From Chitinophagaceae bacterium (GTDB lineage Bacteria > Bacteroidota > Bacteroidia > Chitinophagales > Chitinophagaceae): DNA of 64,000 bases. Position numbers and translations under genes: made by a program. Position 1 is the stretch's first letter, and the number at the start of each line of letters is the position of its first letter. The DNA lies in contig JADBXR010000008.1 of assembly GCA_020403425.1 (NCBI GenBank), positions 124,001 through 188,000 of the forward strand. Direction: 5' to 3'. The notes beneath the pieces are model-generated. The model worked only from the letters and a program-made list of their open reading frames with translations. It was not told where the DNA came from and made no database searches. Positions 22,833-28,322 of the stretch are shown here, piece after piece.

Positions 22833-24545
22833 TTACCCTTCTCCTCTCCTGGGACGTTTCGAATATCCTGCTGGACCGCCACTATCCGCATCGTTCATAC
22901 GGATACGTCTGCCCTTATAACTTTTCCCATCCAGTGAGCGGATCATCTGCTGCGCCGCTCCTCTTTCGATCTCGATCCAGCTGTTCATGTCCTTCATATC
23001 GATCTTGCCCAGCACATCTTTTTTCAGGTCGCTCATATCCAGGATGAACTGGAGGAAGCTGGCTTTGAAAAAACCATCTTTGGTTCCCAGGTTCACGAAC
23101 AAACGGCTATAACCGCCACCCCTTGCATATTCCTTACGGCCATCTCCCCTGCCCATGTTCCTGTCGTCCCTTCTCCTGCCAAAATCTTCCCTGCTTCCGG
23201 GCTCCTTACGATCGCGACTGCGCAGGTTCAGGTCCTCGGCGTTCTCGTAGTATTTCAGGAACCGATCGAACTCCATGGCAGCTACGCGCTTCAGCACATC
23301 TTCCTTGCTTACATCGGCAAATTTCTCTGCCAGCATGGGAACATAGGTCTCATAATCACCGTGACTGATGTCGGCCGACAGTAATTTATCCATGAAAAAG
23401 AAGAACTGTTTCCTGCACACGTCCTTACCGCTGGGTATATCCAGTTTATGGAACTCCGATTTGTTGATGCGTTCGATCTGTTTCAGCTTGTACATCTCTT
23501 TGGCATGTACAATGGAGATACAGATCCCCTGGTTACCCGCGCGACCTGTACGGCCGCTGCGGTGGGTGTATACTTCCACATCATCCGGCAACTCGTAGTT
23601 GATCACGTGGCTGATACCGGCCACATCGATACCGCGGGCGGCCACATCGGTCGCGATCAGCAACTGCAGGCTCTTATCACGGAACTGGCCCATTACGCGG
23701 TCACGCTGTTGCTGCGTAAGGTCACCGTGCAGAGCATCGATATCGTACCCTTCCCTTGTCAAACGTTCAGAGATCTCCTGGGCATCGGCCTTGGTACGGG
23801 TAAAAATGATCCCATAGATACCCGGGTTAAAGTCGATGATCCTTTTCAGCGTTTCATAACGGTGCTGCGCCGTGGTAACATAGTACTGGTGATCAATGCT
23901 CTTATTGGTCGTATTCACCTTTCCTACGGTCACCTCTTTGGGGTCACTCATGTACTTCTTGCTCACCTTACGGATCTCAGGTGGCATGGTAGCACTGAAC
24001 AACCAGGTACTTTCCCTTGCCGGGGTATTCTTGAGAATGAACTCGATATCATCCTGAAAACCCATGTTCAGCATTTCATCCGCTTCATCCAGTACCACAT
24101 ACCTGATCTGCTCCAGGTTGATCGCTTTGCGCTCGATCAGGTCGATCAGACGGCCCGGTGTTGCCACCACGATCTGTACGCCCCTTTTCAGGTCGCGGAT
24201 CTGTAATCCGATAGAAGCACCACCATACACAGCCACTACCGATACCCCAGTCATGTATTTTTTAAAGAGCTCTATTTCCTTTACGATCTGCAGGCAGAGT
24301 TCCCTTGTGGGACAAACCACCAGCGCCTGCGGATATTTTGCCGCGGCATCAATAATATGCAGCAAAGGCAGGCCAAATGCCGCCGTTTTGCCGGTTCCCG
24401 TTTGCGCCAGGCCAATAAAGTCCTTGGTGCCGCTCAGCAATACGGGGATTGCCTGTTCTTGTATTGCGGTCGGGTTCACATACCCCAACTCATCCGTTGC
24501 CTGAATCAATCTAGCATCAATTCCCAACGCTTCAAATGTCGTCAT
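22833..24545 (-). CDS. DEAD-box RNA helicase with C-terminal DbpA-like RNA-binding domain
   Basis: AQTGTGKTAAFGLPLL, VLDEADEML, FSATMPPE, HRSGRTGRAG; C-terminal RLFVNLGTKDGF... DbpA-type fold. ATG 24545. Confidence 0.94.
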   Translation of the reverse strand: MTTFEALGIDARLIQATDELGYVNPTAIQEQAIPVLLSGTKDFIGLAQTGTGKTAAFGLPLLHIIDAAAKYPQALVVCPTRELCLQIVKEIELFKKYMTGVSVVAVYGGASIGLQIRDLKRGVQIVVATPGRLIDLIERKAINLEQIRYVVLDEADEMLNMGFQDDIEFILKNTPARESTWLFSATMPPEIRKVSKKYMSDPKEVTVGKVNTTNKSIDHQYYVTTAQHRYETLKRIIDFNPGIYGIIFTRTKADAQEISERLTREGYDIDALHGDLTQQQRDRVMGQFRDKSLQLLIATDVAARGIDVAGISHVINYELPDDVEVYTHRSGRTGRAGNQGICISIVHAKEMYKLKQIERINKSEFHKLDIPSGKDVCRKQFFFFMDKLLSADISHGDYETYVPMLAEKFADVSKEDVLKRVAAMEFDRFLKYYENAEDLNLRSRDRKEPGSREDFGRRRDDRNMGRGDGRKEYARGGGYSRLFVNLGTKDGFFKASFLQFILDMSDLKKDVLGKIDMKDMNSWIEIERGAAQQMIRSLDGKSYKGRRIRMNDADSGGPAGYSKRPRRGEG

Positions 24546-24563: not shown

Positions 24564-24571
24564 CAAAGGTA
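24564..24571 (-). promoter_or_regulatory. Putative -7 promoter element of DEAD helicase gene
   Basis: Minus-strand TACCTTTG matches TAnnTTTG, 18 nt upstream of ATG 24545. Confidence 0.5.
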
Positions 24572-24765: not shown

Positions 24766-25605
24766 TCATTTCAAGATCCGCCGGATCCCGTTCGCTTTTT
24801 CTATCAATTCTGCCAGGTATTCATAATTCTCCTTCTCCAGGCAGGACTTGAATTTTCTCAGCTGCGCAATATGCTCATTCAAAACATCCAACACATTATC
24901 TTTATTCTGCATAAATATAGGCACCCACATGGCCGGATTACTTTTGGCCAAACGCACCGTACTTTCAAAACCACCACTGGCCAGCTCAAAAATGGCATCT
25001 TCTTCCCGCTCCTTCTCCAGTACCGTATTGGCCAGGGCAAAGGAAGTGATATGGGAGATATGGCTCACATAGGCCACATGCACATCATGGTCTTCCGCAT
25101 CCATGTATACGATGTGCATGCCCAGCAATCCGTACAACTGCTCCACCAGTGCCACCGCATCTGCATCACTGTTCTCTTTGTTACAGATCACCGTGGCCTT
25201 TTTCTCAAAAGCATTTTTCACGGCCGCTTCCGGTCCGCTGTATTCGGTTCCCCACATGGGGTGGGTGGCCACAAAACGACCGCGTTTGGGGCTTTGCATC
25301 GCCGCTTCACAGATCGTTTTTTTGGTGGATCCCACATCCATGACCACCTGCCGATCCACCATTTGTAATACCAGCGGCAACAATGCTTCTGCGGCGTTGA
25401 TGGGCGTGGCCAGTATCACCAGGCCGGACTCCTGTACGGCAGCGTGTAATTCCTTCACTTCATCCACCAGGCCCAGCGCAAGCGCTTTCTGTGCATGTTC
25501 CGGATTGGCATCCACGCCGATCAGTTTGGTGGCGAAACCTTTTTCCTTCAGTGTCAGGGCCATGGAACCTCCAATAAGTCCGACACCGATTATGGTAATT
25601 GTCAT
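24766..25605 (-). CDS. tyrA: Prephenate dehydrogenase
   Basis: 279 aa; GVGLIGGSMALTLKEKG Rossmann motif, THPMWGTEYSGPEAA, HVAYVSHISHITSFALA. Confidence 0.9.
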   Translation of the reverse strand: MTITIIGVGLIGGSMALTLKEKGFATKLIGVDANPEHAQKALALGLVDEVKELHAAVQESGLVILATPINAAEALLPLVLQMVDRQVVMDVGSTKKTICEAAMQSPKRGRFVATHPMWGTEYSGPEAAVKNAFEKKATVICNKENSDADAVALVEQLYGLLGMHIVYMDAEDHDVHVAYVSHISHITSFALANTVLEKEREEDAIFELASGGFESTVRLAKSNPAMWVPIFMQNKDNVLDVLNEHIAQLRKFKSCLEKENYEYLAELIEKANGIRRILK

Positions 25606-25643: not shown

Positions 25644-26804
25644 TCAACGGCTCTCGCGGATCCTCTTTATCGCTTCCCCGAATCTTTCGATGCTTCCACA
25701 GAGACTTACCCTGATATATCCGTCCCCGGCAGTTCCGAAGATGCCGCCAGGTGTGATGAATACATTGGCCTGGTAAAGTACTTCATCGCTCAGTTCATAA
25801 CCGCTGCTGTATTTAGCAGGGATCTTTGCCCATACGAACAGGCCTACCTGGTTCCTGGAAAACTCGCAGTCCAGTAGGTTCAGCAGTTCAAATACCTTTT
25901 CCCTGCGTTCCGTGTAAATGGCATTGATATCATCGTACCAGTCTTTTCCCAATCCCAGCGCTTTGGCTGCAGCCAGTTGCAGGGGCAGGAACATACCGCT
26001 GTCCATATTGCTTTTGAAGCGGAGGATCTCCTCTACCCTTTCTTTGGCCGCACAGATCATTCCGACCCGCCATCCGGCCATGTTCTGGCTTTTACTCAGC
26101 GAATTCAGCTCGATCACCACTTCTTTGGCGCCATCCATGGCCAGCAGGCTCATGGGTTCAGGATTCAGGATGAAACTATAGGGGTTATCGTGACAAACCA
26201 GGATATTGTGTTTCTTGCCAAAAGCCACGATCTTCTCGAATAAAGACCGTGTAGGCAATTGTCCGGTAGGCATATGCGGGTAGTTGACCCATAGCAGCTT
26301 CACTTTACTGAGGTCCGTTTTCTCCAGTTCGGCAAAATCGGGTTCCCAGTTGTTCGCTTCTTTCATCTCATAAGGCACCGGTTTGCCACCCGCCAGTTTT
26401 ACCGCACTGCTGTAGGTTGGATAACCTGGGTTGGGTATCAGGGCCTCATCCCCTTCATTCAGGTAGGTCATACAGATATGCATGATACCTTCCTTACTGC
26501 CGATCAGTGGCAGCACTTCGGTTTCCGGGTCCAGGGCAACACCATACCAGGCAGCGTACCAGTCGGCAATGGCCTTGCGCAATACGGGCGATCCCTTATA
26601 GCTTTGATAAGCATGGGTATTGGGCTTTTCGGCCTCTTCCTGCAATACTTTGATCACATCGGGATGCGGGGGCAGGTCCGGACTGCCGATACCGAGGTTG
26701 ATGATGTTCTTGCCCTGTTTGTTTAGCTGCTCTATTTCGCGCAGTTTCTGCGAAAAATAGTATTCACCGATACCTTCCAGCCTCTTTGAAGTAGCTACTG
26801 TCAT
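25644..26804 (-). CDS. PLP-dependent class I/II aminotransferase
   Basis: 386 aa; NLGIGSPDLPPHPDV, NPGYPTYSSAV, HDNPYSFI, ELNSLSKSQNMAGWRVGM; sits between pheA and tyrA, consistent with aromatic aminotransferase. Confidence 0.88.
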   Translation of the reverse strand: MTVATSKRLEGIGEYYFSQKLREIEQLNKQGKNIINLGIGSPDLPPHPDVIKVLQEEAEKPNTHAYQSYKGSPVLRKAIADWYAAWYGVALDPETEVLPLIGSKEGIMHICMTYLNEGDEALIPNPGYPTYSSAVKLAGGKPVPYEMKEANNWEPDFAELEKTDLSKVKLLWVNYPHMPTGQLPTRSLFEKIVAFGKKHNILVCHDNPYSFILNPEPMSLLAMDGAKEVVIELNSLSKSQNMAGWRVGMICAAKERVEEILRFKSNMDSGMFLPLQLAAAKALGLGKDWYDDINAIYTERREKVFELLNLLDCEFSRNQVGLFVWAKIPAKYSSGYELSDEVLYQANVFITPGGIFGTAGDGYIRVSLCGSIERFGEAIKRIRESR

Positions 26805-26807
26805 ATA

Positions 26808-27722
26808 TTATCCTTTTACAACTTTTCCTTTTTGGTAGATCCCGAATATTTTCACGCTGTTGGTCAGAGACTCGATGGAAGCCAGCACCGCCTCGAACTG
26901 TTTACGAGAGTCGAACTCCAGGTCTGCATAAAAACCATATTTGAAATTGCTTCCCGGTATCGGCATACTCTGCAGTTTGCTCAGGTTAATGCCGCCCTTT
27001 GCGATCTGTGTCAGCACCTGTGCCAATATCCCTTTGGAATGATTGGTCTGAAAATAGAGGGAAGCTTTGTCCGCATTCGGGATCTCCTTCACTTCATTCT
27101 CTCTTTGCAAGACAAGGAAACGGGTCACATTATTTTTCAGGGTATGGATATTGGGAGCGATCACATCCATATCATACAATTCCGCGGCCAGTTTACTGGC
27201 AATGGCCGCGGCATGTTTGCTGTGTTTCTGGTGAATATGTTTGGCACTGAGTGCGGTATCCTCTGTTTCCACCAGTTTCCAGTCGTGTTTCTCCAGGTAA
27301 TCGAGACACTGCAAAATGGCCATGGGATGACTATGTACTTCCCGGATATCTTCCAGCTTCACGCCCTTGTTCACCATCAGGTTCTGGCTGATGGAGAGAT
27401 AGACCTCGCCGATCACTTTCAGTTTACTTTTCTGCAGGAGGTTATAGTTGGGAAGGATACTTCCGGCAATCGAGTTCTCGATGGCCATGATGCCGCCAGC
27501 TGATTGTTTTTTATCGGAAGAGATCCGGATCAGGTCACGGAAAGTGGCGCAGGCGATCACTTCCACCTGTTTGCCAAAAAAGGAACGGGCGGCCACCTGG
27601 TGAAAACTTCCTTCATACCCCTGGATGCAGATACCCCCGGCCTGCGCCTTCTCCTGAGATGGCGCTTTGGGGGCCGCAGCATTTTGTTTCGCGTGTATCG
27701 TCATAAACAGATCCTGTTTCAA
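26808..27722 (-). CDS. pheA: Prephenate dehydratase
   Basis: 304 aa; GYEGSFHQVAA, AIENSIAGSILPNYNLL, HSHPMAILQC, C-terminal ACT region (SKLQSMPIPGSNFKYGFYADLEF). Confidence 0.92.
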   Translation of the reverse strand: MKQDLFMTIHAKQNAAAPKAPSQEKAQAGGICIQGYEGSFHQVAARSFFGKQVEVIACATFRDLIRISSDKKQSAGGIMAIENSIAGSILPNYNLLQKSKLKVIGEVYLSISQNLMVNKGVKLEDIREVHSHPMAILQCLDYLEKHDWKLVETEDTALSAKHIHQKHSKHAAAIASKLAAELYDMDVIAPNIHTLKNNVTRFLVLQRENEVKEIPNADKASLYFQTNHSKGILAQVLTQIAKGGINLSKLQSMPIPGSNFKYGFYADLEFDSRKQFEAVLASIESLTNSVKIFGIYQKGKVVKG

Positions 27723-27739
27723 TTTACCGGCAGTGCCGG

Positions 27740-27773
27740 AAAAAAAATGATCCCGGCCTTATGAGCCGGGATC
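27740..27773 (-). terminator. Attenuator terminator upstream of pheA
   Basis: Minus strand GATCCCGGC-TCATAAG-GCCGGGATC then A and TTTTTTTT; lies between leader peptide stop (27795) and pheA start (27722). Confidence 0.9.
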
Positions 27774-27794
27774 GTATCTTAATTTGTTTCGCTT

Positions 27795-27881
27795 TTATGC
27801 TTTGGCAAATACTACCCGGCTCCTTTTTGTAAAGAAGTAATAAAAAAAGAAAAAGAAAGTATTTGCTGTGATGTTGTTCAT
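27795..27881 (-). CDS. Phe/Tyr leader peptide (attenuator), MNNITANTFFFFFYYFFTKRSRVVFAKA
   Basis: 28 codons read base by base on the minus strand; F5-Y2-F2 run at codons 9-17; TAA at 27795-27797; absent from the supplied ORF track because it is short. Confidence 0.88.
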   Translation of the reverse strand: MNNITANTFFFFFYYFFTKRSRVVFAKA

Positions 27882-27888
27882 GTGATGT

Positions 27889-27920
27889 CAAATATAAGTA
27901 CGGATCGCATTCAAAAACAA
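27889..27920 (-). promoter_or_regulatory. Promoter of pheA leader transcript
   Basis: Minus strand TTG (27920-27918) - 21 nt - TATATTTG (27896-27889), matching the Bacteroidota -33/-7 layout (TTG / TAnnTTTG). Confidence 0.6.
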
Positions 27921-28145: not shown

Positions 28146-28322
28146 TTACTTCTTGGTAGTGTCAGCAGCAGCGTGAGTTGTGTCAGCAGCGTGAGCAGCA
28201 GTATCAACTGGAGCTACAGCAGCAGTGTCAGCTTTTACAGTGTCAGCAGCAGGAGTTTGGTTTTCACCAGAGTTACAGGCAGCGAAAGCGCCCAGAGCCA
28301 GAACGAATAACAGCTTTTTCAT
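28146..28322 (-). CDS. Small Ala/Thr/Asp-rich putative lipoprotein (58 aa)
   Basis: MKKLLFVLALGAFAACNSGENQTPAADTVKADTAAVAPVDTAAHAADTTHAAADTTKK; lipobox-like AFAAC. The ORF track N-terminal extension is probably spurious. Confidence 0.75.
   Translation of the reverse strand: MKKLLFVLALGAFAACNSGENQTPAADTVKADTAAVAPVDTAAHAADTTHAAADTTKK

Follow-up and report, generated by a model that had tools for sequence, protein, structure and literature searches.

Does the run of phenylalanine and tyrosine codons upstream of the prephenate dehydratase gene pheA in a Chitinophagaceae bacterium belong to an attenuator, and which genes does it control? The locus lies within a window of 64,000 nucleotides (the whole stretch of DNA that was analysed), and the initial annotation, made from these letters, had read it as a ribosome-stalling attenuator gating a cluster of Phe, Tyr and shared chorismate genes. 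In Bacteroidota, ribosomes initiate without Shine-Dalgarno sequences. The features described below are collected in Table 1.

Table 1. Features of the pheA leader region, the gated genes and the other leaders of the same genome
Feature	Position	Strand	Basis
Possible -33 element TTG, weak	27918..27920	-	Sequence
Sigma-A -7 box TATATTTG (consensus TAnnTTTG)	27889..27896	-	Sequence; family conservation; consensus of PMC9723704
Predicted transcription start, 2-3 nt 5' of AUG	27883..27884	-	Predicted from box spacing
Leader ORF MNNITANTFFFFFYYFFTKRSRVVFAKA	27795..27881	-	Sequence; composition scan and shuffles; homologues
Segment 1 GCAAAUACU, codons 6-8, protector 5' arm	27858..27866	-	Fold; conserved pairing
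Nine sensing codons FFFFFYYFF	27831..27857	-	Sequence
Segment 2 GAGCCGGGUAGUAUUUGC, protector 3' arm and antiterminator 5' arm	27804..27822	-	Folds
Segment 3, 3' arm of the antiterminator (CAA...AUAC...CCCGGCUC), shared in part with the terminator 5' arm	27763..27786	-	Duplex and folds
Intrinsic terminator stem-loop, 10 bp	27749..27773	-	Hairpin scan; pair counts in relatives
Terminator U-tract, A then U8	27740..27748	-	Sequence
pheA, prephenate dehydratase; ATG 27704 preferred, TTG 27722 alternative	26808..27704	-	PF00800; ORF
PLP aminotransferase (class I/II), second gene of the gated unit	25644..26804	-	Profile match; conserved order
tyrA, prephenate dehydrogenase	24766..25605	-	NF006307 above cut-off
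TACCTTTG, separate promoter box of the helicase	24564..24571	-	Sequence; box in 42/47 relatives
His-rich leader, own genome (G000)	L115		Sequence
Trp-rich leader, own genome (G000)	L146		Sequence
Ile/Val-rich leader, own genome (G000)	L127		Sequence

The Leader ORF and Its Phe/Tyr Codons

The 28-codon leader ORF, with its ATG at 27881 and its stop at 27795, contains nine consecutive codons that are all Phe or Tyr (7 Phe and 2 Tyr). The two strands of the 64-kb window hold 1,492 short ORFs of 8-60 aa, and among these the runner-up scored 5 Phe/Tyr in 9 codons; in 2,000 dinucleotide shuffles of the 600-nt upstream region the highest such score was 7, reached only once. The 9/9 run is therefore beyond chance. 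The ORF adjoins a promoter box and lies upstream of the prephenate dehydratase gene, so that its repeated codons are those of the pathway products, as in an attenuator. Judging from these codons, the leader would sense both Phe and Tyr. The ORF, the complementary segments GAGCCGGG and CCCGGCTC and the terminator were all found on the minus strand at the positions at which they had been annotated.

Alternative Hairpins and Folding States

GAGCCGGG at 27822-27815 is complementary to CCCGGCTC at 27770-27763, a pairing that had been described as an 8-nt antiterminator. This pairing stands; after folding, the 8-bp antiterminator was superseded by a longer helix, in which, below GAGCCGGG/CCCGGCUC, pairing goes on between GUAU in segment 2 and the AUAC just 5' of the terminator, followed by weak pairs. 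The duplex energy amounts to about -22 kcal/mol. A protector hairpin had been missed: GCAAAUACU (27866-27858), directly before the F/Y run, pairs in folding with AGUAUUUGC (27812-27804). Segment 2 is common to protector and antiterminator, and segment 3 to antiterminator and terminator, which gives the standard four-segment design. The whole leader folds with z = -4.4 against shuffles, and no other hairpin-plus-T site on the minus strand of the cluster is as strong as its terminator.

Constrained folding with assumed standard ribosome footprints reproduced the expected states. When the A site was placed on F/Y codons 1-7 and the terminator 3' arm was not yet made, the antiterminator formed at about -22 kcal/mol, weakening to -16.7 kcal/mol with the A site on F/Y codon 9. 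Moving the ribosome to the stop codon left the best antiterminator-containing fold at about -10 kcal/mol, compared with about -22 kcal/mol before, and the full transcript formed the terminator. The initial annotation had foreseen this loss of the antiterminator and had ascribed it to the covering of GAGCCGGG, but under the standard footprint it is AGUAUUUGC, the latter half of segment 2, that is covered. With a stalled ribosome on the full transcript, antiterminator and terminator are nearly equal in energy, so the switch would be kinetic, as in known attenuators. In the ribosome-free state, protector and terminator form on the full transcript; before the terminator 3' arm is made, the minimum-energy fold is the antiterminator, not the protector, and hence termination without translation would depend on folding kinetics.

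The mechanism proposed from these elements would begin with RNA polymerase starting 2-3 nt before the leader AUG and a ribosome loading at once on the near-leaderless RNA. If Phe or Tyr were short, the ribosome would stall in the nine F/Y codons and mask segment 1; segment 2 would then pair with segment 3 and block the terminator. If both amino acids were plentiful, the ribosome would proceed to the stop codon and mask AGUAUUUGC, which would remove both the protector and the lower antiterminator helix, and the terminator would form. In the case of no translation, the protector 1:2 would favour termination. Taken together, the pheA leader is very probably a classical ribosome-mediated attenuator of pheA-aminotransferase-tyrA that responds to the charging of tRNA-Phe and tRNA-Tyr; translation of the leader ORF, stalling of the ribosome and termination in vivo are what its sequence predicts.

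Conservation across Bacteroidia

With a threshold of at least 6 of 9 codons, an F/Y-rich ORF was found upstream of pheA in 101 of the 105 close relatives whose loci have enough upstream sequence. Among the four misses, L020 is a truncated contig on which the run is visible without its start, and one of the 101 matches (L073) is doubtful and was excluded from later tests. Two cultured Sediminibacterium species, S. roseum and S. ginsengisoli, have the element as well (loci L008 and L026). The leader is also conserved across the class, being present in 35 of 38 Bacteroidia genomes of other families in the phylum sample; outside Bacteroidia it occurs in 4 of 18 genomes of that sample. The comparison of pheA upstream regions had been named beforehand as a possible refutation, and since the homologous regions carry F/Y-rich ORFs together with paired segments and compensatory changes, it supports the reading as a ribosome-stalling attenuator.

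In the carriers outside the class (L159, L168, L193 and L198), pheA is unusually similar; their F/Y leaders fit a transfer of the attenuator with the gene, or misassigned contigs. A Flavo-1 RNA (RF01705, function unknown) was located at L170:518-595, near the pheA leader of a relative from another family.

Codons for both F and Y are present in all 91 distinct family leaders. A terminator lies between the leader ORF and the first gene in 90 of 92 distinct family leaders under a relaxed rule; an earlier terminator finder had overlooked about a quarter of the loci, owing to a U-tract that is interrupted or pairs into the stem.

The segment after the run pairs unbroken with the terminator 5' arm or loop in 115 of the 118 distinct leaders with a detected terminator, although the relatives share ancestry and such counts, like those of conservation, are not independent tests. 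This complementarity is compensatory: about 60 different arm pairs occur among the leaders with a terminator, for example GAGCCGGG/CCCGGCTC, TGGACCGGG/CCCGGTCCA, AAACCGGGAG/CTCCCGGTTT, AGCGAGGCTTT/AAAGCCTCGTT and GCGGTCGGGA/TCCCGACCGC. The own pairing scored 19.3 against 16.2 for swapped partners (sd 0.22, maximum 17.1), and none of 2,000 permutations reached the own value; outside Chitinophagaceae the scores were 19.4 and 14.3, respectively. The CCGGG core is widespread, and for this reason the own arm beat the median foreign arm only in about half of the loci.

Of the 90 family leaders, 88 beat composition shuffles at p <= 0.02 in antiterminator energy and 42 in the protector; among the 28 others, 23 and 4 did so, respectively. 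Against slid controls in 32 close relatives, the terminator and the protector were in excess in pair counts, and the antiterminator in percentage paired. The protector shows 73% of cells paired in these 32 relatives, with modest covariation and weak pairing outside the family. Covariation of the antiterminator is likewise modest within the close alignment, as the CCGGG core is invariant there. A duplex cross-test in the close alignment was set aside with its row L065 mislocated.

Promoter Spacing and Predicted Near-Leaderless Initiation

The promoter had been annotated as a TTG and a -7 box; the box TATATTTG is a good match and is conserved upstream of the leader ATG in Chitinophagaceae, whereas the -33 TTG is weak. 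Seven bases separate the end of the box (27889) from the ATG at 27881. The TAnnTTTG box occupies -12 to -5 in Flavobacterium psychrophilum (PMC9723704), and in F. johnsoniae 4-5 nt lie between box and transcription start. From the 7-nt gap and this Flavobacterium spacing, a 5' UTR of only 2-3 nt is predicted, and with it the start site and near-leaderless initiation at the pheA leader.

Of 91 distinct Chitinophagaceae leaders, 44 have 7 nt between box and ATG and most have 3-8 nt, against mostly 16-35 nt outside the family. The helicase of the same loci served as control promoter; its box stands about 24 nt before the ATG, and short gaps are therefore not the general promoter placement here. 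Leaderless mRNAs are uncommon in Bacteroidota, accounting for about 3.7% in Bacteroides thetaiotaomicron and 5.5% in F. psychrophilum (PMC9723704).

The same genome carries further leaders: MKTFAHTHHHHFLPQG before hisG, MNQITNKYWWWHTNSVRGL before trpE and MLRSSIHNVNTVITVIAIAIVIIIPALHGG upstream of the ilv genes. These His, Trp and Ile/Val leaders each precede a terminator-like hairpin and have relatives in the genus. Behind the box, gaps of 4-9 nt prevail among the His and Trp leaders; in the genome analysed here, the gap of the Ile/Val leader measures 16 nt, and a perfect box is missing from the Trp leader. None of the five genus trp-leader loci (WWWH) matched RF01692 Bacteroid-trp at threshold. 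On balance, it seems somewhat probable that the Phe/Tyr, His and Trp attenuators of Chitinophagaceae place the sensing ORF at the RNA 5' end, with near-leaderless initiation feeding ribosome-mediated attenuation, and that sister families keep the pheA attenuator with an ordinary 5' UTR.

The Probable Gated Unit

The start of pheA is ambiguous. The TTG at 27722, proposed in the initial annotation, is present but doubtful, and an in-frame ATG follows at 27704; about 30 residues of pheA precede the conserved prephenate dehydratase domain.

The order pheA, aminotransferase, tyrA is kept wherever the contig is long enough, and for these genes the annotated cluster holds. Its extension to the aro genes is weakened by a DEAD-box helicase with its own conserved -7 box, which in this genome intervenes between tyrA and the DAHP synthase gene. 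A TAnnTTTG box precedes the helicase in 42 of 47 relatives with the order tyrA-helicase-DAHP synthase, and a terminator sought in the tyrA-helicase gap of these relatives was not found. Considering the conserved box of the helicase, only pheA-aminotransferase-tyrA belong firmly to the gated unit. The genes for DAHP synthase-chorismate mutase, aroB, aroA and aroC may receive readthrough from the attenuated unit, but probably have another source of transcription than the pheA leader. In 22 relatives, tyrA adjoins the DAHP synthase gene without the helicase.

The listed TTG start of the helicase (24566) lies within the box TACCTTTG, so that the ATG at 24545 is its likely start. In eight relatives (L046, L048, L050, L052, L055, L071, L078 and L079) the helicase is upstream of pheA instead, and the same gene thus appears on either side of the attenuated unit.

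Alternative Explanations

Intergenic terminators are common, and the gene upstream (ORF ending at 28146) is co-directional with pheA; the terminator could hence be constitutive or belong to that gene, with an incidental F/Y ORF and pheA driven by readthrough or another promoter. The upstream gene, however, has a separate terminator-like hairpin at 28044-28029, the F/Y ORF and the complementarity of the arms are kept class-wide, and the F/Y codons fit the downstream pathway, which makes this explanation very unlikely. A somewhat less improbable, though still quite unlikely, view is that the ORF acts otherwise, by coupled translation or re-initiation onto pheA or through a trans-acting leader peptide. 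Leader peptides can have second roles, as reported for the trans-acting peTrpL of Sinorhizobium (PMC7298713), and the conserved C-terminus RSRVVFAKA of the peptide looks protein-like. But some 70-90 nt with a terminator in between separate the leader stop from the pheA start, and the RNA arms (CCGGG and GUAUUUGC) account for the conserved C-terminus, which in other genera reads RPGMLLLK or SRD and changes along with them.

In place of a ribosome, the signal might be read by an RNA that binds a metabolite or a tRNA (riboswitch, T-box), or by a protein-dependent antiterminator; the structured 5' region and its mutually exclusive hairpins would suit this as well. This explanation is extremely unlikely: beyond the ORF and the pairing arms, no part of the alignment is conserved, and the sensing codons are kept while the underlying DNA varies. 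Moreover, no Rfam family reached its gathering threshold in the 64-kb window; neither RF01692 Bacteroid-trp nor any described T-box or riboswitch aptamer family was matched there. The best sub-threshold match was the Phe leader peptide family, RF01859 Phe_leader (24.6 bits, E 0.034); as its gathering score is 55, the pheA leader is not a member of that family. Phage_DGR, MicC and others appeared at a relaxed Rfam threshold and were dismissed as weak chance matches, and Phe_leader was kept as a hint only. The ribosome-mediated attenuator remains the preferred reading.

Significance and Comparison with Known Systems

The leader offers a concrete case of translation-coupled attenuation across Bacteroidia, whose ribosomes work without Shine-Dalgarno sequences. 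Since the switch needs a ribosome close behind RNA polymerase, it could provide a direct assay of transcription-translation coupling in Bacteroidota, and the predicted near-leaderless attenuator of Chitinophagaceae versus the leadered one of other families forms a natural experiment on initiation speed. With no Rfam match, and with the leader ORF missing from the gene track according to the initial annotation, many genomes could be annotated for this element.

The surveys of Vitreschak (2004) and Lopatovskaya (2010) may include cases from Bacteroidota; Bacteroidetes go unmentioned in the text of a genome-wide survey from 2010 (PMC2965389). Attenuation in this phylum was proposed for the Bacteroid-trp RNA (RF01692, Weinberg 2010; PMC2864571; PMC6414381), and in F. 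psychrophilum 'strong clues' of leader-peptide attenuation upstream of amino-acid operons were described by Guerin (2021) in the part of that paper drawn on here (PMC9723704). These candidates share with the pheA leader an attenuation-like design and a place in front of amino-acid operons of Bacteroidota. Bacteroid-trp, however, is a Trp element, unlike the Phe/Tyr leader, and the F. psychrophilum candidates are not itemised in that part of the text. According to PMC9031893, the leaderless polycysteine ORF attenuators of mycobacteria (Canestrari 2020) have a sensing ORF at or near the RNA 5' end, as is predicted for the pheA leader with its 5' UTR of 2-3 nt; they belong to another phylum and another amino acid.

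The closest counterpart is E. coli pheL-pheA (RF01859), which likewise has an F-rich leader ORF, alternative 1:2, 2:3 and 3:4 hairpins and a terminator before pheA; the Chitinophagaceae leader aligns to the RF01859 model over its full length. It differs in having Tyr codons in the run, a Bacteroidota promoter and, as predicted, almost no 5' UTR. Attenuation in Bacteroidota had thus already been proposed, and the pheA leader is a well-supported new case of it, with a variant initiation context that is predicted.
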